Part shown: positions 6,995 to 50,192 of the stretch, one piece after another
Position numbering within the stretch: position 1 is the stretch's first letter
Layout of the letters: the number at the start of each line of letters is the position of its first letter
Origin: Verrucomicrobiales bacterium
Lineage (GTDB): Bacteria; Verrucomicrobiota; Verrucomicrobiia; Verrucomicrobiales; DEV007
Reading direction: 5' to 3'
DNA: 59,462 bases
Assembly: GCA_029233965.1 (NCBI GenBank)
Contig: JARGOP010000027.1
Coordinates: 1-59,462 of the forward strand
Position numbers and translations under genes: made by a program
The notes under the pieces: model-generated
What the model was told of the DNA's origin: nothing
Seen by the model: the letters and a program-made list of their open reading frames with translations, nothing else
The model's database searches: none

Positions 6995-7069
6995 GCGCGG
7001 TTAGCTCAGGGGTAGAGCATCACCTTGACACGGTGGGGGTCACTGGTTCAAATCCAGTATCGCGCACCA
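6995..7069 (+). tRNA. tRNA-Val (GAC)
   Basis: A 75-base cloverleaf can be folded fully by eye. The acceptor stem is GCGCGGT with ATCGCGC, the D stem GCTC/GAGC, and the anticodon stem TCACC/GGTGG holds the loop TTGACAC (anticodon GAC at 7027-7029, valine). The T stem is ACTGG/CCAGT with loop TTCAAAT, and the CCA end is encoded (7067-7069). The next gene starts only 10 bases downstream. Confidence 0.97.
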
Positions 7070-9088: not shown

Positions 9089-9837
9089 GAAGGAAAATTG
9101 AGACGGGCCACCTTGAGAAGGCCATGCATCGTGAGGAGTGGTTCGACGGATTCGATCTCGGCAAACTCGTCCGCTATCAAAGCCGCATATCCTCCCGTCG
9201 CAATCACTTTTGCGGATCCTTCCATCTCAGACTGGATTTGAGCGAGAATCTCACGCACAAGCCCCCGGTAGCCGTGAAACGCCCCGGCCTGCATCGCGCC
9301 CTCGGTGGATTTACCAATCGCGCTGTCGGGCCGAACGATCTCAATCTCGGGAAGCAGCGCCGTTCTTTGATGCAAATAGTGCCTCATCGCATCCAGTCCG
9401 GGAGCAATGACGCCACCGACATAGGCGGGCCTCGTGTCGATAATATCAAAAGTCACTGCGGTGCCGAAATCGACCACAATAACAGCCTCGCCGGGATAGC
9501 GACCCGCAACCGCTGCGGCATTGGCAAGACGGTCCGCCCCGATCGTCGCCGGGTTCGGAAAATCAACCTCGACGCCGAGAGCAATTGTATGCGAGAGCTC
9601 GACAATCGCCTTTCCGCCCTGTGCTTCTTTCAGGGCCGGAACATTCGCGGGCACCACCGACGCGAGCACGACCTTGTCCCAGTTCCAGGGCTTCAAATGC
9701 GCGCGAACCGTCTCCGTGGTGACGTCCCGGGACATCATCGACTCGTGTGCGAGAAGCCCGTCCCGGTTCGCGAGGGCGAACTTCGTCCGCGTATTGTTGT
9801 TGTTGATCAGGAGAAACTCCGCCGACACTTCGCTCAT
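9085..9837 (-). CDS. coaX: Type III pantothenate kinase (CoaX), divergent first motif
   Basis: A 250-residue type III PanK, the first enzyme of coenzyme A synthesis. Motif 2 (IGADRLANAAA) and motif 3 (VVDFGTAVTFD) are intact, as is the PGLDAMRHYLHQRTALLP region. Motif 1, normally DxGNT, reads N12-N13-N14-N15-T16, so the conserved Asp and Gly are both Asn. The start at 9837 gives the family N-terminus (MSEVSAEFLLI); the frame is open further upstream without homology. It overlaps the preceding membrane-protein gene and the following ROK gene by ATGA each, in a tight operon. With motif 1 changed, activity may be reduced, but motifs 2 and 3 argue for a working enzyme. Confidence 0.88.
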   Translation of the reverse strand: MSEVSAEFLLINNNNTRTKFALANRDGLLAHESMMSRDVTTETVRAHLKPWNWDKVVLASVVPANVPALKEAQGGKAIVELSHTIALGVEVDFPNPATIGADRLANAAAVAGRYPGEAVIVVDFGTAVTFDIIDTRPAYVGGVIAPGLDAMRHYLHQRTALLPEIEIVRPDSAIGKSTEGAMQAGAFHGYRGLVREILAQIQSEMEGSAKVIATGGYAALIADEFAEIESVEPLLTMHGLLKVARLNFPS

Positions 9838-10334
9838 GACCCCCCCGGCAGTTCCGCTTTGGCTCGATCGCCCTGAAAATCCAGCCAGATCGACCCGCTC
9901 GCATCCGCCATCCAAAGCTTTACCGTGACGAGGGATTCCTCTTCCGCCCCCACGGACTGAGGCGTTTGGAACGGGGCGAAAAAATGAGGGATCGGCACCC
10001 CGTCCCCCGTGCTCGCTTTGAGCGTCTCCTCATTCACCAAAACCGCGTCTTCTGTTTTGGCACGAGCCAACAGGGTGACCTCAACGACCTGCCCCTGTTC
10101 AGTCGGCTCCACTTTCACCGCCGTGATCTGAAATCCTTCCGGTTCAGGAGCCGCTTCCGCATCCGGCTCACTGACTCCAATCTCAGTCACCACAACCTTC
10201 GTAAGCTCTTCCGAAGCTTCCACGCCGGCGACAGCTTTCTCCTCAAGCGGCTGAAACGCGAAGACCAGCAAGCACACGACCACCCCGAAAAGCAGCCACA
10301 CCTCAAATCGCTTCAATAGAAAAAGATAACTCAT
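9834..10334 (-). CDS. Hypothetical single-pass membrane protein
   Basis: A 166-residue protein I do not recognise. One N-terminal membrane helix (about residues 9-28, VWLLFGVVVCLLVFAF) follows a short basic start, so the remaining 135 residues are probably periplasmic. An acidic linker (EPDAEAAPEPEG) leads to a beta-rich part ending with VTVKLWMADASGSIWLDFQGD. It sits between mlaD (23-base gap) and coaX (ATGA overlap). Position right after mlaD raises the possibility of a role in the same lipid-transport system, but nothing in the sequence proves it. Confidence 0.7.
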   Translation of the reverse strand: MSYLFLLKRFEVWLLFGVVVCLLVFAFQPLEEKAVAGVEASEELTKVVVTEIGVSEPDAEAAPEPEGFQITAVKVEPTEQGQVVEVTLLARAKTEDAVLVNEETLKASTGDGVPIPHFFAPFQTPQSVGAEEESLVTVKLWMADASGSIWLDFQGDRAKAELPGGS

Positions 10335-16898: not shown

Positions 16899-17885
16899 AT
16901 GAAATCAGCCCTCGTCACCGGCGCTGCCGGGTTTATCGCCAACCGTATCGTCCACCAACTGCTCGAAAGTGGAGTCGAAGTCGTGGGACTCGACAACATC
17001 AACGACGCCTACGACAAGCGCATCAAGGATCATCGAATCGCGCAGCTCGCCGGTCGTGAGAACTACACTTTCTACGAGGCTGATATTGAGAACCTCTACG
17101 ATCTCAAGCCCATCTTCGAGAAGCATTCCTTCGATGTGATCTTCAATCTCGCGGCCCGCGCCGGAGTTCGCTACAGCATCGAGAATCCGCATGTCTACAT
17201 GTCGTCGAACGCTCAAGGTGCCCTGAATATTCTCGAAATGATGCGGAGCCACGAGATTCCCCGCCTCATTCTTGCCTCGACTTCGTCACTCTATGCCGGA
17301 CACGCCATGCCATTCCGGGAGGATCTTCCCGTCGAGCACCCGCTTTCCCCGTATGCCGCCTCGAAGAAGGCCGCAGAGGTGATGTGTTACACTTACCATC
17401 ATCTCTTCCAGATCGATGTCCGGATCCTCCGCTACTTCACCGTGTATGGCCCCGCCGGTCGCCCTGACATGGCCCCGTTCCGCTTTATCAAGTGGATCCA
17501 GGAAGGCACCCCGATCACGGTCTTCGGCGACGGAACGCAGACCCGCGACTTCACCTACGTTGACGACATTGCCTCGGGAACCCTTCTCGCCGCGAAGCCT
17601 CTCGAAGGTGGCAAACCACAGCACACCGTCATCAATCTTGGAGGCGGAAAGAAGCCGATCGCCCTGCTCGATTTCATTCACATGATCGAAGACCGCCTCG
17701 GCAAAAAAGCGGAACTCGTCTTCAAAGAAATGAGTTCCTCCGAAATGATCGATACCGCCGCGGACATTCGGAAAGCGAAAGAAGTTCTCGGATGGGAACC
17801 TCAATTCGATCTCGAAGAAGGTCTCGACCGCACCGTCGCCTGGTATCTCGAAAACCTTGAGTGGGCGAGCCGGGTCGAGCTGTAG
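16899..17885 (+). CDS. NAD-dependent epimerase, UDP-glucuronate 4-epimerase-like
   Basis: A 328-residue extended short-chain dehydrogenase. It opens with TGAAGFIANRIV, where the third glycine of GxxGxxG is Ala. Asp of VVGLDNIND binds the NAD ribose, the catalytic YAASK motif is PYAASKKAAE, and YGPAGRPDMAPFRF plus GDGTQTRDFTYVDD match UDP-glucuronate/UDP-galacturonate and UDP-glucose 4-epimerases. The product is probably a nucleotide sugar for surface polysaccharide. The neighbour upstream is a Gfo/Idh oxidoreductase; downstream it converges with the esterase gene (39-base gap). Confidence 0.88.
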   Translation: MKSALVTGAAGFIANRIVHQLLESGVEVVGLDNINDAYDKRIKDHRIAQLAGRENYTFYEADIENLYDLKPIFEKHSFDVIFNLAARAGVRYSIENPHVYMSSNAQGALNILEMMRSHEIPRLILASTSSLYAGHAMPFREDLPVEHPLSPYAASKKAAEVMCYTYHHLFQIDVRILRYFTVYGPAGRPDMAPFRFIKWIQEGTPITVFGDGTQTRDFTYVDDIASGTLLAAKPLEGGKPQHTVINLGGGKKPIALLDFIHMIEDRLGKKAELVFKEMSSSEMIDTAADIRKAKEVLGWEPQFDLEEGLDRTVAWYLENLEWASRVEL

Positions 17886-17924
17886 GGCACCTTCCGCAAA
17901 CAGGGTCGGATCGACGATCCGCCC

Positions 17925-19859
17925 CTATTGTGTCGCGACTTTCCCGAGGCCTTCCACGTCTCCATACTTGAGCGCTCCGGGAACCATGTTGTCGTCATCG
18001 AAGTCGGTCACATCGGCAAAACGGAAGTCTTTCAGATCGATCAAGAGCTCGTCGATCTCATCACCGCTGAGAAATCGAGCGGCGAGAGCGGTGGCCGCCG
18101 TGTCCCCTTCCCCCTGGACCGTAATCTTCGTCACTTCCCAGTCGGGATGATTCGCGGCCATCGAGACTGCAGCCGCGACTTCGTGAGCGCGACGAGTGAA
18201 ATTGGAATCGTTGTAGCCGTAGAAGTAAACGGGGGAACGCTGCCAACTGTCGGAGGGAAGATCCTTTTCCCCGGAGTAGGTCACGGCTTGATTCACTCCC
18301 CTTGAGAGCGAAGGAATCACCACGGCCGCATCTCCGTATCCACTTGCATCTCCCGCCGTGTGCACGACCACTTCGCCGTTCCAGTTTTCCGGGTAATGAA
18401 TCTCCGCCGGGAGTGAGCGTTCGCCGAAAGAAATCGATCCTGACATTTTCACGACGCCGTCCGCCTTTTCTTTTTCCCCCAGCTCAAAGGCAGCCGGTGC
18501 CGTTGGAAGTGCGGAAGCATTGAGAAGGACTCCCCATCCCGCTTTCAGCGCTTTCCGGTCTTCAGCAATCGCCGCATCAGAATCGGCCGCCCAGATCGCG
18601 TTCAACGCTTTCTCGTGTTCATCCCCTGCGACATAGTTCTCCGGCTTTTCATCGAGCGCATCCCAGACGCCGAGGTCTTCTCTCCCCAGAAACTTGAAAT
18701 CCGATTCCAGGACCGGCTCTCCAAAGCCGAGGTTGAAGTGGCGATTCACGAACTCGTAAAGGTGCGTGCGTGAGACATGATTGAAGTTGTGGAAAAAGTG
18801 GATGTCAAAATAGGCCTCGTAATTCCCCGGAGCCTTGAGCCGTTCGTAAAGCGATTGGAGATCCGGATGTCCCTTGGTCTCCAACTCGATCGTCCAGTCA
18901 TCGGCCGCGGTGAGGCCCAGCGGCTTCGGGGCGAAGGCCGCCGCGATGTCGACATTCCCCTGACCGATCCGCAGGTAATGACTGTTCTCACAGGTACAGC
19001 CGCCCTGCATTGCCGTGCTCACCATGACGGCGGGGAAGGAGGCATCGACGCGGTCGTCAATCGCCGAAAGCATCATGGTCTGGGTGGCTCCCCCGCTGGC
19101 ACCCGTCACAAGAATCCGATCAGGATCGACTTCTTCGAGTGAGGCGAGATAGTCAAGGGCCCTGACACTGTTCCAGGTTTGGAGGCCGAAGTTGGTTTGA
19201 AGACGCAGGGTTGCCTGCGGACTCACCAACCCCCACTCGCCGGCTTCCTTTCCATTCATCGCATCCCGTGGACCGCGCCGGTGTTCAACGAGTTGCATCG
19301 AGTCCGCATTTCCGATGGTGTCAAAAACGAGGACAACGCATCCCATGCGGGCGAGTTGGACGCAGCGGGCAATGATCGGATTTCGCGATGCCGCTTCAAA
19401 GCGCTCCGCACCTTTCGCGATCTGGGCGAGAGCACCACGATACCCTTCGCGGTCGATCGAGTCGTAGAAACGGCCATTCGTCCAGTGACCGTGCGGACAG
19501 ATCACTCCGGGACGTTTCCCGTCGACGAGGCCGTTCGCCTCCGTCTCGCCATCAGGGCTGAAGAGGTTTCCGGTGACGAAGTGTCCGGGAAAGGACTCGA
19601 AGTAGACGCGCTCGACTTTGAAACCGTCCTGTTTGACCGTGCCGAAGCGTTTCGCATTCAGCGGGGTCTTCTCCGGCATCGGGAGCAGTCCGGCCGCGAC
19701 AAGAATGCGCGTCTGGATTTCCTCCTTTCGGTCCTTCCACTGGGAAATGGATGGGACGGGTCGAAACGGGTGGTAGTCGTGAAGTGTGACGACAGCTTCC
19801 TCCGCGTGAGTAGAGACAGCGAAGGCCAGGGCGAAAATGGAGATCCGGATCAGTTTCAT
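17925..19859 (-). CDS. Secreted alpha/beta hydrolase, acetylxylan-esterase-like
   Basis: A 644-residue exported protein with a signal peptide (MKLIRISIFALAFAVSTHAE). The catalytic domain has a nucleophile elbow GASGG with Ser255, preceded by an acetyl-xylan-esterase-like PGVICPHGHW loop; the catalytic His may be in HNFNHVSRTH. A long C-terminal beta-rich part (about 400-644) carries no motif I recognise. Large two-part esterases of this layout are common in polysaccharide-degrading Planctomycetota and Verrucomicrobiota. The start at 19859 gives the signal peptide; an upstream in-frame start would put 29 extra polar residues before it. The sulfatase gene ends 11 bases upstream, so the pair is probably co-expressed to strip ester and sulfate groups from glycans. 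Confidence 0.75.
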   Translation of the reverse strand: MKLIRISIFALAFAVSTHAEEAVVTLHDYHPFRPVPSISQWKDRKEEIQTRILVAAGLLPMPEKTPLNAKRFGTVKQDGFKVERVYFESFPGHFVTGNLFSPDGETEANGLVDGKRPGVICPHGHWTNGRFYDSIDREGYRGALAQIAKGAERFEAASRNPIIARCVQLARMGCVVLVFDTIGNADSMQLVEHRRGPRDAMNGKEAGEWGLVSPQATLRLQTNFGLQTWNSVRALDYLASLEEVDPDRILVTGASGGATQTMMLSAIDDRVDASFPAVMVSTAMQGGCTCENSHYLRIGQGNVDIAAAFAPKPLGLTAADDWTIELETKGHPDLQSLYERLKAPGNYEAYFDIHFFHNFNHVSRTHLYEFVNRHFNLGFGEPVLESDFKFLGREDLGVWDALDEKPENYVAGDEHEKALNAIWAADSDAAIAEDRKALKAGWGVLLNASALPTAPAAFELGEKEKADGVVKMSGSISFGERSLPAEIHYPENWNGEVVVHTAGDASGYGDAAVVIPSLSRGVNQAVTYSGEKDLPSDSWQRSPVYFYGYNDSNFTRRAHEVAAAVSMAANHPDWEVTKITVQGEGDTAATALAARFLSGDEIDELLIDLKDFRFADVTDFDDDNMVPGALKYGDVEGLGKVATQ

Positions 19860-37016: not shown

Positions 37017-37094
37017 GAATCGAGTGGGGTGAGGATCTTACCGCTTTTCCCGAGTTGCGCCACCTTTGGGAAAAGGAAAATCTTCAGCACGGAT

Positions 37095-37129
37095 TCAACC
37101 CTGTTGAGACGCCCTTTCAACCCTGTTGA
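37095..37129 (+). promoter_or_regulatory. Tandem operator before the metal efflux operon
   Basis: Two identical 13-base palindromes TCAACCCTGTTGA at 37095-37107 and 37117-37129, 22 bases start to start (about two helical turns). A -35-like TTGAGA in the first copy and a TGACAT at the end of the second are 17 bases apart, so the sites may overlap the promoter itself. A nearly identical arrangement stands before the copper ATPase gene (47092-47126) and a looser one before trmB (50126-50160). The binding regulator is unknown. Confidence 0.75.
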
Positions 37130-37165
37130 CATATGACTCCGTTGACGTCTATCGTTACCCAGTCG

Positions 37166-37546
37166 ATGCGCCGCCTTACCCTCAGTCTGCTTCTGCCACA
37201 GATTTTCCTCGCCCTGAGCGTGGGATCGACGGTGACTGTTTGCCAGGCTGCCGGGTCTGTCGGGATTGATCTTCATGCGGAAGAGCCCTGCCACGGGGAG
37301 CATGGGCATGATCATCACAGCGGGGAAGAGATGCCCCTCAGCGACCTCTGCCAATCCCTCGTTGAAAATGCGACGGCTCCTTCATCGTGGAAACTCCCGG
37401 TCGAATCTCCTCCCGTCGACCTGCCCCCTGCCTTTTCAGACTATAAAAGTGCGATCTCATCACCACTTCGCGGCCTTATTCCGGGCGAACCACCCGCTCC
37501 ACCGTCCCCCCCGCGATCGGTCCTCACCGGTTGCTTCCTGATTTGA
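37166..37546 (+). CDS. Small secreted His-rich protein, metal island
   Basis: A 126-residue protein with signal peptide (MRRLTLSLLLPQIFLALSVG). The mature part carries a His/Glu/Asp cluster with Cys (CHGEHGHDHHSGEEMP), then a Pro-rich tail PPAPPSPPRSVLTGCFLI. It is the first gene after the tandem operators and 110 bases before the TolC-type gene, so it likely belongs to the efflux operon and may bind or buffer periplasmic metal. The upstream ATG at 37133 lies inside the promoter zone, so 37166 is preferred. Its C-terminal FLI end is shared with the Cys-rich protein at 47968-48336. No named family is recognised. Confidence 0.65.
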   Translation: MRRLTLSLLLPQIFLALSVGSTVTVCQAAGSVGIDLHAEEPCHGEHGHDHHSGEEMPLSDLCQSLVENATAPSSWKLPVESPPVDLPPAFSDYKSAISSPLRGLIPGEPPAPPSPPRSVLTGCFLI

Positions 37547-37656
37547 TCCCGATCCGCGCGGCGAATTTCCTTCGCCTTCCCGACGGCATTTCCGCTCTTC
37601 TGCGGAATGATGCCCCACGCGGTCCTCTGCCGTTCTCAGAGGAAAATTGGACTCAG

Positions 37657-38946
37657 ATGAATTTTGACCGACACAACAAGAGCGGAGCAGTCCGACTCAT
37701 TTTCGCCCTCGGCTTCCTTGCCGCGAGTCATCTCGCGGTGGCGGAAACGCTTTCACGCGACGAAGCGATTCGCCTCGCCTTTCAAAACAACCGTGACCTG
37801 GCGATCGCGTCGCTGGAAATCAGGCGTGCCGCAACTCGTCTCAAATGGTCGGGGCGTCTCGAAAACCCGGAGTTGGAGTTCGCACGAACCGGCGATGGAT
37901 TCGGTGAAGACGAGGGCGAAGGCGTCGCGGAGATCGGCTTCAGCCAAAGATTTCCGATCACCACCAGGCTGAAGCACGAGAAAAATCTCCGTCGCTACGA
38001 GGTCATCCTCGCGGAAGCCGAAATCGCCGAACAACGACGCAAGCTCGCCGGGGAAGTCGATCTCGCGCTCGTGGAATTGATTGCGACCCGCGAAAAAATG
38101 GCGGTGAGCCGTGAACTCCTCCGGTTGAACAGGGAAATCGTCGATTTTTTGAAACAGCAGGCCAAAGAAGGCCTTGTTTCCTCGCTCGACGTTATGCAGG
38201 CCACCCTGAACGGGCGCACTCTCGAGCAGCAGGCAAAATCCCTGGAGGCCGTAGAGAAGCAGAACCTCCTGCGCTTCGTCCAGCACATCGGTCTGGAGGC
38301 CGGCGTGACCGTCGAGGTGGAAACACGCTTTCATGTTCCCGGAAAACAACCCGGCATCGATGTCTCACTGGAAACCGTCCTCCAGCGACGTCCCGACTAC
38401 GTTCTCGCCCTTGCCAAGACCGACGAAGCCGCCGCCGCGGTTACTCTTGAACAAGCAAAACGATGGCAGGACGTTTCGGTGCGACTTTTTGTCGAACAGG
38501 AGGATGCGATCGATGATCCCGACGGCCTCGACGGTAACACCTTCAGCGGCTTCGGCATTTCTATTCCCCTGCCGCTTCGTGATCAGAACCAGGAAGGCAT
38601 CGAACAGGCAGAGATCAACGAGGAGGCCGCCGCGAAAGGAGTCGATGCGGCCCGTTTCCGCATCCGGAGCGAATGCGAAGAAGCCTTTCACCTCCGGACC
38701 GACGCCTGGGAACTCGCCCGCGACGCCTCCGGGGAACTCCTCGACCTCGCTGAAACCAACCTTGAGGAATTTCGAAAAGCCTATCAACAGGGCCAGGCGA
38801 GTCTCATCCAGGTGCAGCGCGCTCAGGAGCAGGTCCTCGAACTGAAAACCGCCTCTCTCGAATTTGTGGCCGACTACGAGCGGGCCGCCGCCCGGGTCAG
38901 GCTCGTGACCGGTGACTACCCCGGCCTCGCCGTTCCCTCCAAATAG
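37657..38946 (+). CDS. TolC-family outer membrane metal efflux protein (CusC-like)
   Basis: A 429-residue outer-membrane factor for a tripartite metal pump. A signal peptide (about 1-27, ending HLAVAE) precedes two outer-membrane-efflux-protein repeats. Typical features are SRDEAIRLAFQNNRDLAIA at the start, PELEF, the middle QRRPDYVLALAKTDEA and the C-terminal YQQGQASLIQVQRAQEQVLELKTASLEFVADYERAAARV. The start at 37657 gives the signal peptide; the longer frame upstream lacks one. The adaptor and pump genes follow at 9 and 99 bases. Confidence 0.9.
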   Translation: MNFDRHNKSGAVRLIFALGFLAASHLAVAETLSRDEAIRLAFQNNRDLAIASLEIRRAATRLKWSGRLENPELEFARTGDGFGEDEGEGVAEIGFSQRFPITTRLKHEKNLRRYEVILAEAEIAEQRRKLAGEVDLALVELIATREKMAVSRELLRLNREIVDFLKQQAKEGLVSSLDVMQATLNGRTLEQQAKSLEAVEKQNLLRFVQHIGLEAGVTVEVETRFHVPGKQPGIDVSLETVLQRRPDYVLALAKTDEAAAAVTLEQAKRWQDVSVRLFVEQEDAIDDPDGLDGNTFSGFGISIPLPLRDQNQEGIEQAEINEEAAAKGVDAARFRIRSECEEAFHLRTDAWELARDASGELLDLAETNLEEFRKAYQQGQASLIQVQRAQEQVLELKTASLEFVADYERAAARVRLVTGDYPGLAVPSK

Positions 38947-38955
38947 ACTTTTCCC

Positions 38956-40095
38956 ATGCGCCTCATTTCTTTTCTTTTCCTGATACCTTTTCTTTTTCTC
39001 TGCGAGCGCCGCGTCCGGGCCGCCGAAGCGGCGATCGATCCAGCCCGCGCTGCCAATACCGTGATCCTCGATGAAACCGCGACACGGAACCTGCAGATCG
39101 AGACGGTGGAAGTGACCGGGGAAACCTTTGAAACAACGGTCTTCGCAATCGGCCGGGTGGAGGAAATTCCCGCGAGCCGCTCCGTCCTTTCCTCCCGCAT
39201 TGCCGGACGGGTCGTGGCCCTCGATGCTCATGTCGGCGACCTGGTTCAGGCCGGAGACATTCTGGCCCGCGTCGAAAGCCGGCAGCCCGGAGATCCGCCT
39301 CCCACGATTGGGCTCAAGGCCCTTCAGGGAGGCCTCGTCGTGGATACTCATGTCCGCATCGGTGAGCCTGTCGAGCCTGCTGCCGATCTTCTTGATATCG
39401 CGGACCGTTCGAAACTATGGGCGATCGCCAAAATCCCCGAGCCGGAAGCCGCCGGGATCGTGCCCGGAACGAAGGCGAGAATTCGCATTCCCGCGCTCGG
39501 CGACGAAATCATTGAAGCGACCCTGAGCCGCTTTGGCGTGGAGGCGAACCGCGAAGCGGGAGCGATCGAAGGGATCTTCGAACTGGATAATTCGGAAGGC
39601 CGCCTCCAGCCCGGGATGCGGGCCGAGTTTTCGATCATTACGGGTCGCCGCGAAGACATCATGGCAGTGCCCCGCACCGCGATTCAGGGTGCCCCCACCA
39701 AACGGGTCGTCTTTGTCGAAGACTACGAGTTACCGAATGCCTTTGTCAGGGCCCCTGTCGTCCTGGGAGAACAGAACGATACCTTCGTCGAAGTCATTGC
39801 CGGACTCTTCCCCGGGGATGAAGTCGTAACGCGCGGATCCTATGCCCTCAGCTTCGCCGGAGGCGGAAGCGGGATGTCGCTCAAGGAAGCCCTCGACGCC
39901 GCCCACGGGCACGAACACAACGAAGACGGTTCCGAAATGACCGGGGAGCAGAAGTCGTCCCGCGAGGAAAATCCATCATCCAACTCCGGAGGCAGCGGAA
40001 ACACCCTCTGGTTCTGGATCGCAATCAGCTGGGCCATCATCGCCACCTTCATCGCTCTTATTTTTCTGCAGAAAACGATCAAACAAAAAGCCTAA
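38956..40095 (+). CDS. HlyD-family metal efflux adaptor (CusB-like) with C-terminal membrane helix
   Basis: A 379-residue periplasmic adaptor linking the RND pump to the TolC-like protein. N-terminal signal/anchor (RLISFLFLIPFLFLCERRVRAAEAA) is followed by the barrel-sandwich part VSSRIAGRVVALDAHVGDLVQAGD and beta-barrel and membrane-proximal regions (AVPRTAIQGAPTKRVVFVED). Unusually the chain then runs through a His-rich linker (HGHEHNEDG) and ends with a clear membrane helix (LWFWIAISWAIIATFIALIFL). The coiled hairpin is short or missing. Start ATG 38956, 9 bases after the outer-membrane gene. Confidence 0.85.
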   Translation: MRLISFLFLIPFLFLCERRVRAAEAAIDPARAANTVILDETATRNLQIETVEVTGETFETTVFAIGRVEEIPASRSVLSSRIAGRVVALDAHVGDLVQAGDILARVESRQPGDPPPTIGLKALQGGLVVDTHVRIGEPVEPAADLLDIADRSKLWAIAKIPEPEAAGIVPGTKARIRIPALGDEIIEATLSRFGVEANREAGAIEGIFELDNSEGRLQPGMRAEFSIITGRREDIMAVPRTAIQGAPTKRVVFVEDYELPNAFVRAPVVLGEQNDTFVEVIAGLFPGDEVVTRGSYALSFAGGGSGMSLKEALDAAHGHEHNEDGSEMTGEQKSSREENPSSNSGGSGNTLWFWIAISWAIIATFIALIFLQKTIKQKA

Positions 40096-40168
40096 CACAC
40101 ACAGATCCGGAGTTGTTCCCAATTCCGCTAGCTAAACCTTTCCACCTTTCACTTTCCTACCTTTCCAC

Positions 40169-40186
40169 GTCCCGCAACAGCGGGAC
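40169..40186 (+). other. Hairpin in front of the RND pump gene
   Basis: GTCCCGC-aaca-GCGGGAC is a perfect 7-bp stem ending eight bases before the cusA ATG. No T-run follows. It may be an RNA processing or translation-control element in the long adaptor-to-pump gap (99 bases), which is also pyrimidine-rich with the repeated CTTTCCAC. Inference only. Confidence 0.35.
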
Positions 40187-40194
40187 ACCGCACC

Positions 40195-43100
40195 ATGCTC
40201 AACGCCCTCATTCGCTTTTCCCTCGCTCAGCGCGCGCTTGTTCTCGCGCTCGCCGCAATGCTCTTGGGCCTTGGGATTAAGAAGATCACGGAACTGCCGG
40301 TCGAAGTGCTGCCGGACCTCACGAAACCGACCGTCACGATCCTGACGGAAGCTCCGGGCTTTGCTCCCGAGGAGGTCGAAACCCTCATCACGCTTCCCCT
40401 CGAGAACGCGCTCATGGGAGTGAACGGCGTCTCGCGTCTCCGTTCCGTCAACGACATCTCGCTTTCTCTCGTCTTCGTCGAATTCGACTGGGACACCGAT
40501 ATCTATCAGGCACGGCAGTTCGTGCAGGAGCGTCTCACCGGCGTCACCGAAACGCTTCCCGAAGGGATTTCGCCCTACATGACACCGGTCGCTTCGCTCA
40601 TGGGGGAGATCATGCTTGTCGGGATCACCGATCCGACCGGGAAGACCGATCCGCGCGATTTGCGAACCCTCGCGGACTGGACCTTCGCGACCGGGATTCG
40701 ATCCGTTCCCGGAATCGCGGAAGTTCTCGGCATGGGCGGCGGGGTGAAACAACTCCAGATCCAACCGCTCCCCAACGAGATGCTCGCCCTCGGAGTGAGC
40801 TTCGAAGAACTTAAAGAGGCGGCGGCGAGCGCGGTGCGCAATACGACCGGGGGATTTCTCACCGGGTCTTCGCAGGAGATCATGGTGCGGAACCTCGCCA
40901 TGACCAGCAACCTCGACGAGGTCGGCGACACTGTCGTCTCCTACTACGATGACCGACCGATCCGACTCAGCGATGTCGCAAACGTGACCTGGGGAATCGA
41001 ACCCATGCGCGGCGATGCAGCAATGGGCTCCAGGCATCTCAAGGCAGCAAAGGACGGACCTGCGGTCGGCTACCCGGGCGTGCTTCTCAGCGTCACGAAG
41101 TCCCCCGGATTCGACACCATCGGCCTCACTGACCGTGTCGAAAAGAAACTGAAAAAGCTGGAGACCGCTCTCCCCGAAGGAGCGGAAATCGTGATTCTCT
41201 ACCGCCAGGCTGACTTCATCGAGATCGCAATCGGCAACCTTAAGGAAGCGCTCCGCGACGGAGCAATCATGGTCGCCCTGGTGCTCTTTCTTTTCCTCCT
41301 CAACCTTCGGGTCACCCTGATCACCCTGACCGCGATCCCACTGTCACTGGCGGTCTCCGTTCTCGTTTTCGACGTCATGGGGCTGACCGTCAACTCGATG
41401 ACGCTCGGAGGTTTCGCTGTCGCGATCGGCATGGTTGTTGATGATGCGATCGTCGATGTTGAAAACGTCTTTCGTCGATTGCGCGAAGCCGCCTCCGATC
41501 CCAAGGCAAAACCGAAACTGGAGATCATTGCGCTCGCCTCGGCCGAGGTCAGGTCGTCGATTCTCTACGCCACGATCCTCATTATCCTCGTGTTTGTTCC
41601 TCTCTTAGGCCTCAGCGGAGTGGAAGGACGACTCTTCGCTCCCATTGCAATCGCGACGATCATCAGCATGGCGGCTTCTTTCGTTGTTTCGCTGACGGTG
41701 ATTCCGGTCCTCAGCTCCTACCTTCTCCACCCCAAAGCCGACAAGGATCGTGGTGACAACCGTGCCGTGAAAGGGTTGAAGGCTTTCTTTCGCGGAACCG
41801 CGCTCCGCTTCGCCCTCGCACAGCCTTTGACCGTACTCGCCGCGACCGCCCTCCTCCTCGTCGCTGCGGGAGTGATCTACACGAGCATGGGCGGCAACTT
41901 TCTTCCCGCTTTCCGCGAGCCCACTGCCGTTGTCGCGACGACGGCTGCGCCCGGGACCTCACTGAAGCAGACGACCGAACTCGCGGACACCGCCGTCGAT
42001 CTTCTTCTTCAGATTCCGGAAGTGGAAACCGTCGGCTATCGCGCCGGACGGGCCGAGCGCGGTGACCATGTCGTTCCCGTCTCGACGGTGGAGTTCGATG
42101 TCGAATTCACCGAAAGCGAAGCACGGAACCGCGATGAAATTCTCGAAGAGATTCGACAAACGATGCGCGGCATCCCCGGCACCTTCAGCGCCATGAGCGG
42201 ACCCCTCGCCGACCGCATCGGACACATGCTCAGCGGCGTTTCCGCCAAAGTCGCGGTCAAAGTCTACGGCCCGGATCTCGATGAACTGCGGCGTCTCGGC
42301 ACTGAGATCGCGGAAGTCGCCCGGAAGATCCCCGGCCTCGAAGAGGCGCGCATTGAACAACAGGCGCCCATTCCTCAGCTTCGCATCGAAGTCGACCGGA
42401 AGCGCGCCCTCGCCTACGGCGTCAGCCCCGGTGAACTCAACGGGGAACTCGCGACTCTCATGGGCGGGAAAGCCGTCGCCGAAGTCTATGAAAACCAGCG
42501 CACCTACGATCTCGTCGTCCGTCTCCCCGAGGAATGGCGCGAGTCCCCGGAGCGCCTCCGCCAGCTCTACATCGATACGGTGAACGGAAAGATGATCCCT
42601 CTCAGCTACGTTGCCGACATTCGACAGGCGAGCGGTCCTAACACCATCCTGAGGGAAAACACCCAGCGCCGCTTCGTCGTTTCGATCAACCCGACGATCG
42701 GAGATCTCAACCGCGTCGTCGAAGAACTCCAGGCAAAGGTCGAACGCGATGTCAAAATCCCGGCCGGATACACCCTTTCCTACGAAGGCGAGTATGAAGC
42801 GCAGGCGGATGCAAAACAACGTATCGCCCTCATGTCGATCGCGATTCTGCTCGTCATTGTTTTTCTCCTCTACAGCTATTTCCGGAGCAGTGCCTTTGTC
42901 GTCCTCGTCCTCTCGAACATTCCGATTTCTCTCATCGGGGGAATCTTTCTGACGAAGTTCACGCTCGACACTGTGAGCATAGCGACGCTCGTCGGATTCA
43001 TCGCGATTTCGGGCATTGCGGCGCGAAATTCGATCATGATGATCTCCCACTACCTCCACCTCATGAAGCACGAAGGGGAATCTTTTGATCTCAAGATGGT

Positions 43101-43353
43101 CATTCGCGGCACCGAAGAACGCCTCGTTCCCGTGCTCATGACCGCCCTTTCCGCAGGCATCGCTTTGATCCCACTCGTCCTCGCCGCCGGTGAACCCGGG
43201 AAAGAAATACTGAATCCCGTCGCCATCGTAATCGTCGGTGGACTAGTAAGTTCGACTTTACTCGGACTCATGGTGACCCCCGCAGTCTTCTACGCTTTTT
43301 GCCGTCGCTCTGCCGATCTGTCGATCATCCGAAACGCAGCAGCAGCCCAGTAA
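40195..43353 (+). CDS. Heavy-metal RND efflux permease (CusA/CzcA family)
   Basis: A 1052-residue inner-membrane RND pump, full length for the HME family (CusA 1047). It opens with the usual LIRFSLAQRALVLALAAMLLGLG and keeps ELPVEVLPDLTKPTVTILTEAPG. The TM4 segment reads GMVVDDAIVDVENVFRRL; the acidic pattern is nearer CusA-type (Cu/Ag) than the CzcA type, which has an extra Asp six residues earlier. Two large periplasmic domains lie between TM1-2 and TM7-8. It is the third structural gene after the TolC- and adaptor genes and is followed 40 bases later by a His-rich protein. Confidence 0.92.
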   Translation: MLNALIRFSLAQRALVLALAAMLLGLGIKKITELPVEVLPDLTKPTVTILTEAPGFAPEEVETLITLPLENALMGVNGVSRLRSVNDISLSLVFVEFDWDTDIYQARQFVQERLTGVTETLPEGISPYMTPVASLMGEIMLVGITDPTGKTDPRDLRTLADWTFATGIRSVPGIAEVLGMGGGVKQLQIQPLPNEMLALGVSFEELKEAAASAVRNTTGGFLTGSSQEIMVRNLAMTSNLDEVGDTVVSYYDDRPIRLSDVANVTWGIEPMRGDAAMGSRHLKAAKDGPAVGYPGVLLSVTKSPGFDTIGLTDRVEKKLKKLETALPEGAEIVILYRQADFIEIAIGNLKEALRDGAIMVALVLFLFLLNLRVTLITLTAIPLSLAVSVLVFDVMGLTVNSMTLGGFAVAIGMVVDDAIVDVENVFRRLREAASDPKAKPKLEIIALASAEVRSSILYATILIILVFVPLLGLSGVEGRLFAPIAIATIISMAASFVVSLTVIPVLSSYLLHPKADKDRGDNRAVKGLKAFFRGTALRFALAQPLTVLAATALLLVAAGVIYTSMGGNFLPAFREPTAVVATTAAPGTSLKQTTELADTAVDLLLQIPEVETVGYRAGRAERGDHVVPVSTVEFDVEFTESEARNRDEILEEIRQTMRGIPGTFSAMSGPLADRIGHMLSGVSAKVAVKVYGPDLDELRRLGTEIAEVARKIPGLEEARIEQQAPIPQLRIEVDRKRALAYGVSPGELNGELATLMGGKAVAEVYENQRTYDLVVRLPEEWRESPERLRQLYIDTVNGKMIPLSYVADIRQASGPNTILRENTQRRFVVSINPTIGDLNRVVEELQAKVERDVKIPAGYTLSYEGEYEAQADAKQRIALMSIAILLVIVFLLYSYFRSSAFVVLVLSNIPISLIGGIFLTKFTLDTVSIATLVGFIAISGIAARNSIMMISHYLHLMKHEGESFDLKMVIRGTEERLVPVLMTALSAGIALIPLVLAAGEPGKEILNPVAIVIVGGLVSSTLLGLMVTPAVFYAFCRRSADLSIIRNAAAAQ

Positions 43354-43393
43354 ATCAACACCAATCAACACTGAACTCAAAAATCCTAACACA

Positions 43394-43975
43394 ATGAAAA
43401 AACTGACCTCATCCCTGAGCCTCCTCCTCGCCGCCACGGCATTTGCTTTCACCTCCGTCGCCTGCACGGAAGAAGAACATGCCGATCACGATCATGCCGA
43501 ACACGCTGATCATGCCGAACACGCGGACGATGAAAAAGACCACGACCACGCCGAACACGAAGAGAAAAAAGACGGCCACGATCACGACCACGATCACGCC
43601 GGCATTGAGGACGGACCGAACGGAGGACGCCTCCTCACTTCGGTCGAACCTCACCTCGAGTTCTTCGTGACCGACGATCGCAAAGTACGCATCTCCTCTG
43701 TCAGCGACGATGAGGAACTCCAGCCCATCGCCGCCCAGAAGGTCAGCGTCATCGGAGGGGACCGCTCCAACCCGACCCGGATGAAGTTCACTAAAGAGGG
43801 CGACGTCCTTGTCTCCGACATCGCGTTTCCGGAAGGCAACGACTTCCCGATTGTCGTCACAATCACCCCGACTCCGGAGTCGGAAAAGGTAACCGAGAAG
43901 TTCAATCTCAATCTTGTCCAGTGCCCCGAGTGCCCTAACAAGGAGTATGCCTGCACCTGCGATCACGAACATTGA
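43394..43975 (+). CDS. His-rich probable lipoprotein of the metal efflux operon
   Basis: A 193-residue exported protein. The signal ends with a lipobox-like SVAC (Cys24), so it may be lipid-anchored; the -3 position is Ser, which is weak. Residues about 29-72 are a His/Asp/Glu-rich stretch (HDHDHDHAG and similar), followed by GPNGGRLLTSVEPHLEFFV, a short domain often found with CusB-type proteins, and a Cys-rich C-terminus (CPECPNKEYACTC). It probably binds metal ions in the periplasm for delivery to the pump. It lies between the RND gene and the CDF gene. Confidence 0.7.
   Translation: MKKLTSSLSLLLAATAFAFTSVACTEEEHADHDHAEHADHAEHADDEKDHDHAEHEEKKDGHDHDHDHAGIEDGPNGGRLLTSVEPHLEFFVTDDRKVRISSVSDDEELQPIAAQKVSVIGGDRSNPTRMKFTKEGDVLVSDIAFPEGNDFPIVVTITPTPESEKVTEKFNLNLVQCPECPNKEYACTCDHEH
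43478..43600 (+). repeat. Degenerate His-codon repeat
   Basis: Repeated CAT/CAC-GCC-GAT-type units (for example GATCATGCCGAACACG, appearing more than once) encode the His/Asp/Glu-rich segment of the lipoprotein. The unit is imperfect, so this looks like a coding repeat that has drifted, and a possible site of copy-number change. Confidence 0.6.
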
Positions 43976-43987
43976 TCCACTCTTCCT

Positions 43988-44872
43988 GTGTCCCACGATC
44001 ATCCTCACAGCAGTGAGAACCTGAAGGTTGCGTTCTTTCTCAACCTCGGGTTCACCCTGCTGGAGATCGTCGGCGGGATCTGGACGAACAGCATCGCGAT
44101 CCTGACCGATGCGGTTCACGATCTCGGGGATTCCGTCTCCCTCGGTCTCGCCTGGTATTTCGACCGGCTTTCTGAGAAAGGGAGAACCCCGCGCCACACT
44201 TACGGCTACCGCCGCTACCGCCTCTTCGGCGGGCTCATCACCGGCCTTCTCCTTCTCGTCGGCCTCAGCTTTGTCCTTCGTCACTCAATCCCCCGGCTCT
44301 TCGATCCGGCCCCGGTCAACGCCCCGGGCATGATCGGCCTTGCCGTCCTCGGGATCCTCTTCAACGGGGCGGCAGTCCTTCGCGTTCGGCGCGGCTCTTC
44401 GCTGACAGAGAAACTCGTGAGCTGGCACCTCATCGAGGACACGCTAGGCTGGATCGCGGTCCTCATTGGGGCCAGTATCATGACAATTCGCGATCTTCCT
44501 ATCATTGACCCAATTCTCTCGATCGGAATCTCGGTTTTCGTCCTCTGGAATGTCGGGAGAAATCTCAAGAAAGTCCTCGCCGTTTTCCTCCAGACCACAC
44601 CGGAGGGATTTAGCGTCGAATCCTTTGAGCGCGACACTCTCGCGATTGACGGCATCGAATCCATTCACCACGTTCATTGCTGGTCCATCGACGGGGAAAG
44701 CCACGTCCTCTCCGCTCATGTCGTCGTCGGGAGTGAAGTCAAAGACGTTGCCGGAACGAAGGCGGAAGTTCGTCAACTCCTCGATCCGGCTTCCTTCGAG
44801 CACATCACACTCGAGATCGAGCACCCCGGGGAATCGTGTCCGCAGCGGGAAGCCGAAGATTTGCCCTCCTGA
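43988..44872 (+). CDS. CDF family cation efflux protein
   Basis: A 294-residue cation diffusion facilitator that exports divalent metal (Zn, Co, Cd) from the cytosol by proton exchange. The start is GTG 43988, encoding MSHDHPHSSENLKVAFFLN. TM2 carries the metal-site pattern SIAILTDAVHDLGDSV and TM5 has HLIEDTLGW; the C-terminal cytosolic domain has HHVHCWSIDGESHVLSAHVVV. The gene starts 12 bases after the His-rich gene and ends 15 bases before the convergent copper ATPase gene. Confidence 0.92.
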   Translation: MSHDHPHSSENLKVAFFLNLGFTLLEIVGGIWTNSIAILTDAVHDLGDSVSLGLAWYFDRLSEKGRTPRHTYGYRRYRLFGGLITGLLLLVGLSFVLRHSIPRLFDPAPVNAPGMIGLAVLGILFNGAAVLRVRRGSSLTEKLVSWHLIEDTLGWIAVLIGASIMTIRDLPIIDPILSIGISVFVLWNVGRNLKKVLAVFLQTTPEGFSVESFERDTLAIDGIESIHHVHCWSIDGESHVLSAHVVVGSEVKDVAGTKAEVRQLLDPASFEHITLEIEHPGESCPQREAEDLPS

Positions 44873-44887
44873 TTCGATCGGGCTTTC

Positions 44888-47083
44888 TCACAGCTTCATT
44901 CTCCTGAGTCGGAGTGAGTTTGTGATCACAGAAACAGAGCTGAAACTCATCGCGGCACCGGCGATCATCGGGCTGAGGAGTAATCCGAAAAAGGGATACA
45001 GGATTCCCGCCGCAATCGGCACGCCAATCGCGTTATAGCCGAAAGCAAAGAGGAGGTTTTGACGGATATTTCGCATCACTTTTCGCCCCACCGTGATGGC
45101 ATTGCTGACGCCACAAAGGTCACCTTTGACCAAAGTGACCGAGGCGCTTTCGATCGCGACATCGGTGCCTGTTCCCATCGCAATCCCAATGTCCGCCTCG
45201 GCGAGAGCGGGAGCATCGTTGATTCCATCACCGGCCATGGCGACGATATGCCCCGCGGATTTTAGTTTTCGAATGAGCTGAATTTTCTCTCCCGGCGAGA
45301 GGTCCGCATGCACCTCGTCGATTCCCAATTCTTTCGCGACCGCGCGCGCAGTCGCCTCGTTGTCGCCCGTCGCCATGACAATTCGCACCCCTCGATCGTG
45401 CAAAATGCGCACCGCCGCGGGGGTCGTTTCCTTGATCGCATCGGCGATCGCAATGAGCCCGACGACCGCTTTCCCGGCGGCGACCCAGACCACGGTCTTC
45501 GCTTCATTCTGCCATTTTTCCGCCTGCTCCAGGAGAACGGGAGAAAGCGCTATGTCTCTCGATTCGAGGAAGGTTGCCTTTCCCACTTCAACATCCACAC
45601 CCCCGACGGACCCGCTGACCCCTCCCCCGGTATGGGACTCAAAATTCGCCGATGACGGCAGATCGAGGAGACGTTTTCCCGCTGCCCGCACGATCGCCCG
45701 GGCGAGAGGGTGCTCGCTGCTCGCTTCGAGTGCCGCCGCCGTCGCAAGCAGCTCCTCTTCCGTTTTCCCTTCGACGACAAAAAGCTGCGTCACGCCCGGC
45801 TTTCCTTCCGTGAGCGTCCCGGTCTTGTCGGTCACGAGCACATCGATCTTTTCGACCCGTTCCAGAGCCTCGGCGTCCTTGATCAGAATCCCGGCCCTGG
45901 CCGCACGTCCCACCCCGACCATGATTGACATCGGGGTCGCCAGTCCAAGCGCACAGGGACAGGCAATGATCAGCACCGCGACGGCATTGACAACCGCGTA
46001 GGCCATCGCCGGAGCCGGTCCCCGGATCGCCCAGACAATAAAGGTGATCACGGACACGAAGATCACGGCGGGAACAAAATAACCCGCCACCGTATCGGCG
46101 AGCTTCTGGATCGGCGCCCGACTGCGTTGCGCCTCAGCGACCATGGCCACGATCTGCGAGAGGAGCGTTTCATCCCCCACCTTTTCCGCGCGCATCGTGA
46201 AGGCTCCGGTCTGGTTCACCGTCGCGCCGATGACTACGTCACCTTCTCCCCGCTCCACGGGAACGGGTTCTCCCGTGATCATCGATTCGTCGACGCGGCT
46301 CTTTCCCTCCACGATAACTCCGTCGAATGGAATCTTCTCTCCCGGTTTTACCCGAAGCAGATCCCCCCGATCAATCGCGTCGATCGCAACCTCCTCCTCT
46401 TTCCCGTCGACGAGGCGGTGGGCCTCCTTCGCGGAAAGACCGATCAGCGCCTGAATCGCCTCGCCGGTCCGGCCACGGGCCCGCGCCTCGAGGAGCTGCC
46501 CGAGCAAAACAAGAACCGTGATCACCGCGGCCGACTCGAAATAAAGTCCGACCTCACCGTGTGTCCGAAAGGAGTCGGGAAAAATGCCCGGGAAGAGGAC
46601 CGCGATCGCACTGTAAAAGTAGGCCGCCCCGACCCCGACCATGATCAGGGTGAACATGTTGAGGTGCCGGTTCACGAGGGAATTCCACCCCCGTTTAAAA
46701 AAGAGGCTCCCTGCCCAGAAAACGACCGGGGTGGCGAGAAGCAACTCGATCCACTGGGACACATTTGACGGAAGCCAACTCGCCATCGCCAGCGCCGGAA
46801 TCATTTTTCCCATCGCAATGAAGAAGACCGGGATCGTCAACGCCAACCCGATCCAGAAGCGGCGGGAGAGAAACCGGATCTCCTCCTCCGCGTGAGGATC
46901 CGGTCCTGCCGTCACCGTTTTCGGTTCCAGCGGCATCCCGCACTTGGGGCAGTCGCCGGGATGATCCTGCTCGATCTCCGGATGCATTGGGCAGGTGTAA
47001 AGCGATCCCGGGGCGACCGGTTTCGTCGATGCCGGGGCAGGGCTATGACCGCCACAACAGCTCGGGGGCTTTTGATCTTCCAT
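44888..47083 (-). CDS. copA: Cu+-translocating P1B-type ATPase
   Basis: A 731-residue copper-exporting ATPase. The N-terminus has CCGG and a heavy-metal-binding domain YTCPMHPEI...[12 protein letters not shown] rather than the usual HMA domains. The TM6 motif [10 protein letters not shown], the phosphorylation site DKTGTLTEG, the SEHPLA motif, [11 protein letters not shown] and the C-terminal [17 protein letters not shown] all fit Cu+ (P1B-1) pumps. The start is ATG 47083, only eight bases downstream of the nearer operator copy (47092-47104). It is convergent with the CDF gene. Confidence 0.95.
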
Positions 47084-47091
47084 CCTTTTAG

Positions 47092-47126
47092 GTAACAGGG
47101 TTAGGCCTCTGACTCAACAGGGTTGA
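47092..47126 (-). promoter_or_regulatory. Tandem operator before the copper ATPase gene
   Basis: TCAACAGGGTTGA at 47114-47126 is the exact reverse complement of the operator at 37095. A second, weaker copy GTAACAGGGTTAG at 47092-47104 keeps the AACAGGGTT core. Start-to-start distance is again 22 bases. Reading on the minus strand, TTGAGT and TACCTA are 17 bases apart, so the copies would overlap the -35 and spacer, and the transcript would begin almost at the ATG. Confidence 0.7.
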
Positions 47127-47436
47127 ATCGGAAGGGGGCGTCTCCATGACCGTGCGCACGAGGTTACGATACGGCTGCGCATCGTTTCATAGCGCCAAAA
47201 GGTTCCCCGAACTTTGATGCCGGGAACGAGACAAATCGGTGTCGCCGCAGTGCCGGGAACGTCACGGGACCTGCCCCCGGGAAATGCCCCGAGAATCCGG
47301 GAGAGCCGAATCGTCAGATAAACGCAAAGCTACGGGAAGAAAGCGGGAAAAAACTCCTTCGTTTCACTGACACCCGTCTTTAGAACATGAGGTCGCTCCG
47401 GATTTCGGAGCGACCTCATGCCTACAGGATGAAGGA
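47127..47436. other. Intergenic stretch between copA and the YHS-type gene
   Basis: About 310 bases between the copA operator and the stop of the minus-strand YHS-type gene. It holds a repeated GCCGGGAACG (near 47219 and 47251) of unknown meaning and, at its right end, the perfect hairpin described separately. I see no convincing gene, tRNA or promoter beyond the operators. Confidence 0.4.
47386..47420. terminator. 15-bp perfect hairpin after the YHS-type gene
   Basis: CATGAGGTCGCTCCG pairs perfectly with CGGAGCGACCTCATG around a five-base loop (GATTT). It lies 16 bases past the stop of the minus-strand YHS-type gene. There is no long T-run, so it may be a terminator of moderate strength or an RNA-stabilising 3' hairpin. 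Confidence 0.55.
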
Positions 47437-49099: not shown

Positions 49100-49978
49100 C
49101 TATTCCAACGGAGCGGCTTTGACCACGAAATCATCGTAGTGAACATCATCCTCATTCGTGGTCAGACTCACGAGTGATTTCGTGGGATGAGCGAGGCCTT
49201 CGGATTGCAACTCCCCCAGTTCCTCGCCGTCGATGCTGACGGTCACGATATCGTCTTTGGTCCGGATGAGGAGTTCATGCCAGTCTTCGCTGCCCTCGAG
49301 ATCGACCGGGAAACGGACCATCTTTTCGGCCAGCATTTCAAGGGTTTCAGCATCGAGTTCCTTTCCTGCCTGCCTCGCTTCGCGAATGTCGAGACGCATG
49401 TTACCCGTTTTGGCATCCTGAATAGAGACTTCGGTCGGGCTGACGGCGACGCTGCAAACGTGACCGGCATGGGACTCCTTCAAATCCTTATCATCGAACC
49501 AGACGTTGAATCGGTAGGCCGTCGGCCCCGCGAATTTGAACTTCACGCACACCTCCATGTCCTTACGCCCTTCAAAACGGATATTATCGACCCCGGCGTG
49601 GTCGTTGATGTCGATCGTTTTGCCGACGAGAACGCCGTCCTGCACGACGCTCTCACTCTTATAGTGTCCCCAGCCTTCTTTGAACCCTTCGCCGGAGAAG
49701 TCATCTTCGAAAATCGTTTCTGAAAAATACAGTTCTTCGTCCTTTCCCTGACGCTTGAGATCCCATTCGTTCAACCAGGTTTGATCTCCAGCGGAGAGGG
49801 TTTCCACCGGCACATCGTAGATCCGGCCCGAGACCCGCAGGCGGACTTTTCCATCGCGCAAATCGACCAATTCCCCCTGGATCGTCTTCCCGTCTTTGTT
49901 TGTGAAATCACGGATTTCAGCGACTGCCGCGCCGGACAGGAAAAGGGAAATAAGCAGGACCGTGAGGCTTTGTTTCAT
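49100..49978 (-). CDS. SHD1-domain secreted protein with LamG/DUF1080-like region
   Basis: A 292-residue exported protein with signal peptide (MKQSLTVLLISLFLSGAAVAE). Residues about 22-75 form an SHD1-type domain (RDFTNKDGKTIQGELVDLRDGKVRLRV, closing with LSAGDQTWLNEW), a feature common in Planctomycetota and Verrucomicrobiota. The rest (about 88-290) has a jelly-roll pattern (FEDDFSGEGFKEGWGHYKSE, EDWHELLIRTKDDIVTVSIDGEEL) like concanavalin/DUF1080 glycan-binding domains. The VanX-like gene follows 5 bases later. Function unknown; carbohydrate binding is plausible. Confidence 0.78.
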   Translation of the reverse strand: MKQSLTVLLISLFLSGAAVAEIRDFTNKDGKTIQGELVDLRDGKVRLRVSGRIYDVPVETLSAGDQTWLNEWDLKRQGKDEELYFSETIFEDDFSGEGFKEGWGHYKSESVVQDGVLVGKTIDINDHAGVDNIRFEGRKDMEVCVKFKFAGPTAYRFNVWFDDKDLKESHAGHVCSVAVSPTEVSIQDAKTGNMRLDIREARQAGKELDAETLEMLAEKMVRFPVDLEGSEDWHELLIRTKDDIVTVSIDGEELGELQSEGLAHPTKSLVSLTTNEDDVHYDDFVVKAAPLE

Positions 49979-50125
49979 GGGGATGATTTACCATTTTCGA
50001 ACGCCGCGCGCAACTACGACGATCCGCCCGAGACCTGACTCTTGCGGAAGCTTCAAACCTTCCCCTCCACAGAGAAAAGCATGCGGGAAGCTTCACGAGG
50101 CGGGGTGGTGACGCTTTCGATGGCC

Positions 50126-50160
50126 CTGACAGGGTTGAGTCATGGATCTAACCCGGTTGA
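50126..50160 (+). promoter_or_regulatory. Third tandem operator-like pair, before trmB
   Basis: CTGACAGGGTTGA (50126-50138) and CTAACCCGGTTGA (50148-50160) match the operator or its reverse complement at 10 of 13 positions each. Start-to-start distance is again exactly 22 bases. The pair ends 32 bases before the trmB ATG. TTGAGT and TGAGTT are 17 bases apart, as in the other two loci. The divergent SHD1 gene begins 148 bases to the left and is a less likely target. Confidence 0.55.
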
Positions 50161-50192
50161 GTTTTCTCTGATTCCCGCCACAGTCACTCACA

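Follow-up and report, generated by a model that had tools for sequence, protein, structure and literature searches.

Contig JARGOP010000027.1 of a Verrucomicrobiales bacterium, a stretch of 59,462 nucleotides referred to below as the window, carries five copies of a 41-bp element built from two palindromes set side by side. The window is contig C91 of G000, a 4.83-Mb draft genome called the own genome in what follows. The even cover of the chromosome by this element, the places it occupies in common in different species, its tolerance of coding DNA, its lack of polarity and its two-dimer design are all as expected of the site of a chromosome-structure protein. The motif is probably a handle for a chromosome-organising protein, and not the metal switch that the initial annotation of the window had proposed. 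We consider it fairly likely that the element is a dispersed, evenly spaced double-strand binding site of a putative protein of this kind, working like the matS, Noc and SlmA sites.

Anatomy, number and range of the element

The copies of TCAACCCTGTTGA first claimed for the window are all there, at 37095-37107 and 37117-37129 on the plus strand and at 47114-47126 on the minus strand, as is a degenerate minus-strand copy at 47092, whose core, AACAGGGTT, is found at 47094. The start-to-start distance of 22 bases reported for both pairs holds as well, and it recurs across the own genome: at the exact TCAACCCTGTTGA loci, the best-scoring partner palindrome at a distance of 13-60 bp falls at exactly +22 or -22 in nine of ten cases and is tied in the tenth. 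Because these loci were picked by the single motif alone, the 22-bp pairing is not built into the set.

The consensus obtained from 58 aligned pairs of the own genome and its relatives, and from 124 sites, reads GAYYCAAC-nnn-GTTGARTC-nny-GACYTRAC-CCT-GTTGARTC, with TCAACCCTGTTGA as its core. Its 41 bp comprise four 8-bp half-sites at an 11-bp pitch, which form two 19-bp palindromes offset by 22 bp with a 3-bp spacer between them; the initial annotation had correctly recognized a palindrome but made it too short, with arms of five bases around a three-base centre. Across the 124 sites the half-sites hold 6.6, 9.0, 9.0 and 6.9 bits and the 3-bp spacer 0.5 bits, and the whole element holds about 40 bits. 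The two centres read AGG..CCT at 74 of the 124 sites, CCT..CCT at 36 (the form of both copper-region sites) and otherwise at 14. A third unit at +44 is rare, being present in two of 58 cases from a set selected with the pair model. The flanks of the element are little conserved, and the spacer sequence is not copied between sites. The original description of paired palindromes two helical turns apart, with no regulator encoded alongside, is supported, and the element acts like a double-strand protein site. The nusG-rplK gap holds one strong unit in the own genome (C30 49724; L003, L017) and a weak pair in the relative G012 (C13 292833; L190), copies that are perhaps a decaying or half site.

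Three of the five paired sites in the window, centred at 10084, 17914 and 50143, are additional to those first noted. The gaps between consecutive sites are 7.8, 19.2, 10.0 and 3.0 kb. The scores listed here were obtained with a 41-column matrix whose training set is 90 own sites, one of which scores 1.1 bits (probably L154, where the unit spacing looks different).

10064..10104 (+): paired site that falls within a predicted gene, 9834-10301 (-); 35.1 bits, outside the training set
17894..17934 (+): paired site of weaker match, flanked by two predicted genes that converge on it, 16899-17885 (+) and 17925-19859 (-); 23.1 bits, outside the training set
37092..37132 (+): paired site ahead of the cusCBA-like operon, with its units at 37095 and 37117 and CCT/CCT as centres; 30.3 bits, training-set member
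47089..47129 (-): paired site upstream of the gene for the copper ATPase, with one unit exact and the other degenerate; 38.8 bits, training-set member
50123..50163 (+): paired site in a divergent gene pair, 49100-49978 (-) and a trmB-like gene from 50193 (+), neither of them a metal gene; 39.3 bits, training-set member

A loose palindrome search of the window returned 51 matches where 23 were expected, a weak pattern on which we do not rely.

In the own genome, TCAACNNNGTTGA occurs without mismatch at 17 places, against five for a reversed-pattern control; 11 of the 17 have the CCT/AGG centre and represent 10 loci. Two sequence-only models, the first built from 11 pairs and the second from 58, list at least about 100 distinct places in this genome, the two strands having been merged by eye. 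Extrapolated from the density on the scanned stretches of G012, the total would be roughly 160-220 sites per genome. At E <= 0.01 the first model has matches in 17 of the 18 congeneric genomes, the own genome included, and in none of ten genomes from other families of the order. At E <= 1e-4 the second model matches 30 of 33 genomes of the genus, with 0 to 142 matches each among those listed, both strands counted. A strict pattern searched over a named genome collection hit 33 stretches in eight assemblies, all labelled Verrucomicrobiales, Verrucomicrobiia or Verrucomicrobia and all except AH-707-L10 labelled as metagenome-assembled genomes. The chromosome stretches examined, on which the element returns about once per 20,000 bases, are from a group of mostly uncultured Verrucomicrobia. 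Viral contigs gave no exact match to one strict pattern, in a search that left the phage collection outside, and the 251-bp cus region gave no plasmid match at the limit used; a phage or plasmid origin was rejected on these two results. A literature search with the exact TCAACCCTGTTGA letters gave no match, and related literature searches showed nothing on the motif among the papers listed.

Spacing and placement along the chromosome

The spacing of the element was measured on contig C13 of G012, where the matrix from the 90 own sites finds, within 660 kb, 28 sites of at least 20 bits and four more between 11 and 16 bits, while the reversed-sequence control has no match of 10 bits or more. The mean gap is about 21 kb and the shortest 7.5 kb, with a coefficient of variation (CV) of 0.46, compared with 0.96 for a random null that gave no equally even set in 20,000 draws. 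A null drawn from intergenic places has a CV of 0.93 and again none of 20,000 draws as even, which rules out even spacing as a by-product of intergenic placement. In a 400-kb stretch of G007, which represents a third species, a matrix from 124 G000 and G012 sites finds 20 sites of at least 20 bits (reversed control, none) with a mean gap of about 20 kb and a CV of 0.42, or 0.34 with a 56-bp doublet merged, a value for which none of 50,000 draws was as even. Because just 17 of the 297 genes of this stretch closely match the G012 stretch, the G007 region is largely independent of the G012 region. The doublet, formed by the paired sites at 135033 and at 135089 of G007 C2 within a mutL-like gene (L280), is the only one of its kind on the scanned stretches.

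Over the whole of G012, the sites are spread over 17 contigs, large ones included. A genome-wide list of 101 places (E <= 0.0099; a lone place on C21, which gives no gap, is omitted, and contig sizes are partly approximated) contains three gaps below 10 kb, against 19 expected, among the places listed. Listed sites are denser on C13 than on the other large contigs, which might reflect a gradient along the chromosome. The 32 sites on C13, a contig of uniform GC skew, divide into 15 on the plus and 17 on the minus strand and so show no polarity.

Placement was judged from genes called with a simple codon-based finder. Seventy of the 90 own sites are intergenic (47 in-line, including L136 at a contig end with no right-hand gene, 15 convergent and 8 divergent) and 20 lie inside genes, some far inside, whereas control positions in the same loci are intergenic in 225 of 3015 cases. 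Intergenic positions likewise account for 26 of the 32 sites on G012 C13, a contig that is 90% coding, and for 13 of the 20 on G007 C2. Sites occur within operons as well as within genes. Their neighbours are unrelated, groES/groEL, rplO/secY, recF, leuB-pyrF and pgk/tpiA among them (names assigned by eye), and no common theme is apparent by eye. One own site (L033) precedes a gene for a WYL-type regulator.

The positions themselves are shared between species. For 16 of the 28 strong sites on G012 C13, a neighbour or host gene is orthologous to one at an own site, as opposed to 4 of 150 control intergenic places; by a strict count that calls for both neighbours or the host gene, the figures are 12 of 32 sites and 0 of 150 controls, all of the controls being intergenic and six of the 32 tested sites lying inside genes. 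Genomes poor in sites keep some of these places, namely those at recF and at a GYF-domain gene (by BLAST) and those at leuB-pyrF, an aldehyde dehydrogenase gene and an AsmA-like gene (by eye). At the sites common to several species (recF, a cystathionine-type PLP enzyme, nifS, the GYF gene and leuB-pyrF), none of the genes is by eye a DNA-binding regulator; a regulator encoded beside a conserved site was accordingly dropped as a candidate.

The site inside nifS

The gene nifS was found in 32 of the 33 genomes, and 30 loci were read. At one and the same place, about 340 bp into the gene, 18 of the 30 loci have a site above 20 bits, four score 6.9-17.9 and eight are negative, counting among the negatives the stretch from G016, which is probably misplaced. 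NPVDS, the motif translated, is read at 15 of the 18 site loci, at all four intermediate loci and at none of the eight negative loci, which have, for example, VEVDA or VGVDE at that position. In G039 a flipped centre gives NRVQS. In 15 genomes selected for carrying the site, codon use at this place is more uniform than in amino-acid-matched columns elsewhere in the gene (P 1.5e-4), and unusual ones are kept, ACA for Thr in 12 of 13 cases and GGG for Gly in 15 of 15, compared with 4% and 22% elsewhere in the gene (13 genomes).

A larger claim can be built on these data: that the element marks a new chromosome-organising system with some 160-220 anchors, one every 20 kb or so, under selection strong enough to write the site into the codons and residues of genes such as nifS. 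We would give this claim about even chances. If it is true, a structural DNA site would dictate protein sequence. Most nifS genes align across the site without an insertion. In G036, a genome with no model match at E <= 1e-4, nifS (L369) has an 8-residue insert with a repeated DSIGY, encoded by GAYTCAATAGG-like repeats, which is possibly a diverged form of the element.

A proposed role in chromosome organisation and alternative explanations

In a chromosome-organising role, each site would be occupied on one face by two adjacent dimers (or one tetramer or hexamer) of a sequence-specific protein, and the complexes, spaced in this way, would serve a function for which the chromosome has to be covered at regular intervals. 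Candidate functions are the bridging or anchoring of loops, the loading or stopping of SMC complexes, the tethering of DNA to the envelope, and nucleoid occlusion. To our knowledge, little is known of chromosome organisation in the Verrucomicrobia. A system of this kind, if real, would lay a site-specific lattice over a whole chromosome, with a spacing rule measurable from sequence alone, and a 41-bp bait would offer a direct handle for finding the protein.

The letters of matS, like those of the present element, contain a five-three-five palindromic core. Density is similar too, as matS, a 13-bp target, has 23 copies in an 800-kb domain of E. coli (PMC3330122). Unlike matS, the present units come two at a time at 22 bp, and the sites, on 17 contigs of G012, are not confined to one (Ter) macrodomain; nor is there a MatP, since PF06303 matches none of the 33 genomes in a search whose control found E. 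coli MatP. Noc in B. subtilis (about 70 sites per chromosome) and SlmA in E. coli (24-52) also have dispersed palindromes as their sites, and SlmA binds as a dimer of dimers (PMC4726725), whereas the copies found here are more numerous and evenly spaced. No consistent Noc-like paralog of ParB appears, ParB_N matches numbering one in 26 of the 33 genomes (the own genome among them), two in three and none in four. Both MatP and a Noc-like ParB paralog are therefore rejected as the binder.

Several observations weigh against a chromosome-organising site. Searches for MatP and for a ParB paralog in the 33 genomes found no binding protein. The evenness is weaker on the genome-wide list of G012, where the CV is 0.75 against 0.95 for the null (P 0.004, among the places listed), and part of G012 C19 is sparser, with five sites in 140 kb and one gap of 42 kb. 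Some sites are close together, 2.6 kb apart on G012 C8, 3.0 kb apart in the window and 56 bp apart in G007. Site numbers vary widely among relatives, over the range of 0 to 142 given above for the matches listed at E <= 1e-4, and G033, although rich in sites, has none in nifS, so that no single site is essential. The genomes in the nifS codon test were picked for having the site, which favours the result, and the NPVDS pattern may be due in part to descent. Finally, many sites lie 20-35 bp before start codons, as a regulator would also give.

This last point is the natural starting place for the view that the sites serve a global transcription regulator as operators, its regulon comprising 100-200 transcription units and the metal genes among them, a view that we find unlikely. 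The initial annotation had the sites overlap promoters, which holds weakly: a sigma-70-like match, TTGACA-18-TATCGT (37126-37155), touches the cus pair, and none was found near the copA pair. ARG-box letters differ from the half-site GTTGARTC, and ArgR operators differ further in site number, in neighbours (which here are by eye not arginine genes) and in the present placement in coding DNA. In layout the two are alike, the canonical E. coli ArgR operator having two 18-bp ARG boxes 3 bp apart, bound on one helix face (PMC6640053), and the element two adjacent 19-bp palindromes with the same gap. Operators would not be expected to recur evenly at intervals of about 20 kb. The 15 of 70 intergenic own sites between converging genes, the 20 of 90 inside genes and the nifS site, well within its gene and kept in many species, also argue against a regulator; the neighbours, by eye, lack a functional theme.

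Known DNA uptake sequences are short and evenly spaced. They cause preferential uptake of conspecific DNA (PMC1939737), and a similar bias in DNA exchange, spreading the sites by favouring uptake or recombination of the DNA that carries them, would fit the even spread, the copies in coding DNA with their matching residues, and the limitation to one group. We regard it as distinctly improbable. The element is unlike the short uptake sequences in its length (41 bp, 40 bits), in its sparseness at about one copy per 20 kb and in its composition from two dimer-type sites.

The metal genes that drew attention to the element occupy the part of the window between its third and fourth sites.

37133..47083: neighbouring metal genes, comprising a His-rich open reading frame, CusC-, CusB- and CusA-like genes, a His-rich protein, a cation efflux (CDF) gene and a copper-type P-ATPase gene (minus strand)

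Pfam families matched among these genes are OEP, HlyD_D23, ACR_tran, Cation_efflux, E1-E2_ATPase and HMBD, while neither of the two His-rich proteins matches any family. The first of the two, a reading frame of 137 codons' worth of amino acids (37133-37546), opens the cus operon right after the paired site. Two of the five window sites precede metal genes, which would favour the metal-responsive regulon with a shared tandem operator that was first proposed. The pair proved to be common genome-wide, mostly beside unrelated genes, inside genes and between converging genes. It is also seen before few of the copA orthologs. Among 21 copA ortholog matches in 16 of the 33 genomes, an upstream site of at least 20 bits is present at three, in the own genome, G004 and G040, counting in the 21 one locus (L267) that ends at a contig end with its upstream DNA unseen. 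In G004 and G040 the site precedes the start of the aligned copA by about 210-220 bp, which would favour the regulon; in G034 a match of 11 bits lies 765 bp upstream. In the site-rich genomes with copA (G000, G004, G007, G012, G037 and G040), three of six have an upstream site. On the genome-wide spread and the copA comparison we reject the metal regulon, to which we now attach very little probability; the metal genes would simply be neighbours of some sites, and putative targets at most.

A further hint of a metal link comes from G029, a 7-Mb genome with only four listed sites, all within 37 kb (C50, about 228-282 kb; L298-L301). Three of the four lie in a metal-efflux cluster, which holds two metal RND operons, CDF genes and an operon resembling anti-sigma, sensor, ECF sigma and P-ATPase genes; the fourth, about 17 kb beyond them, is flanked by genes without an evident role in metal handling. 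Within the cluster, two sites stand just past operon stop codons, a 3' position that argues against an operator, and the third stands 106 bp before a gene. From 240 to 260 kb the G+C content is 0.60-0.62, compared with about 0.53, as an imported piece would have, the last two sites being outside that part. The metal piece would thus appear to have been imported from a site-rich relative, although a residual metal link in G029 may exist. Sites could mark DNA moved between relatives, as this cluster suggests.

A mobile palindrome of the repetitive extragenic palindromic (REP) or REPIN type, spread by a RAYT transposase, would share with the element its high copy number, its mostly extragenic location and its two palindromes per copy, and Y1_Tnp transposase matches occur in 13 of 14 genomes tried, the own genome included. 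G009 has 128 listed matches to the element and no Y1_Tnp (in a genome 69% complete), and G010 has four matches and 17 Y1_Tnp. REPIN doublets are described as randomly distributed in extragenic space, with commonest spacings of 71 or 110 bp (PMC3116915), unlike these evenly placed sites with their 22-bp pitch, and the consensus lacks the terminal GTAG or CGTC tag that marks the two large REP superfamilies (PMC3733652). The uncopied spacer and little conserved flanks, the positions common to different species and the uninterrupted alignment of most nifS genes speak against mobility as well. Left and right arms, moreover, pair at 0.615 over the 124 sites, against 0.606 after shuffling (z 1.65 for Watson-Crick pairs, 0.37 with G-U), and the value is negative within unit 1. 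Because left and right changes do not co-vary, the element looks like a double-stranded protein site and not like an RNA hairpin or a REPIN. The lack of covariation, the centre flips, the spacing and the shared positions together rule against the REPIN, which we hold to be very improbable.

An RNA stem-loop or terminator has a probability close to nil: two consecutive palindromes can fold, many sites lie between gene ends and a weak terminator-like match (47064-47081) adjoins the copA pair, but pairing stays near the shuffled level, the CCT/CCT centres of 36 of the 124 sites break the long stem, and the cus pair has neither a terminator-like match nor, at gathering thresholds, an Rfam match. 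At the same thresholds, the sole Rfam match in the window is a tRNA gene at 6995-7066.

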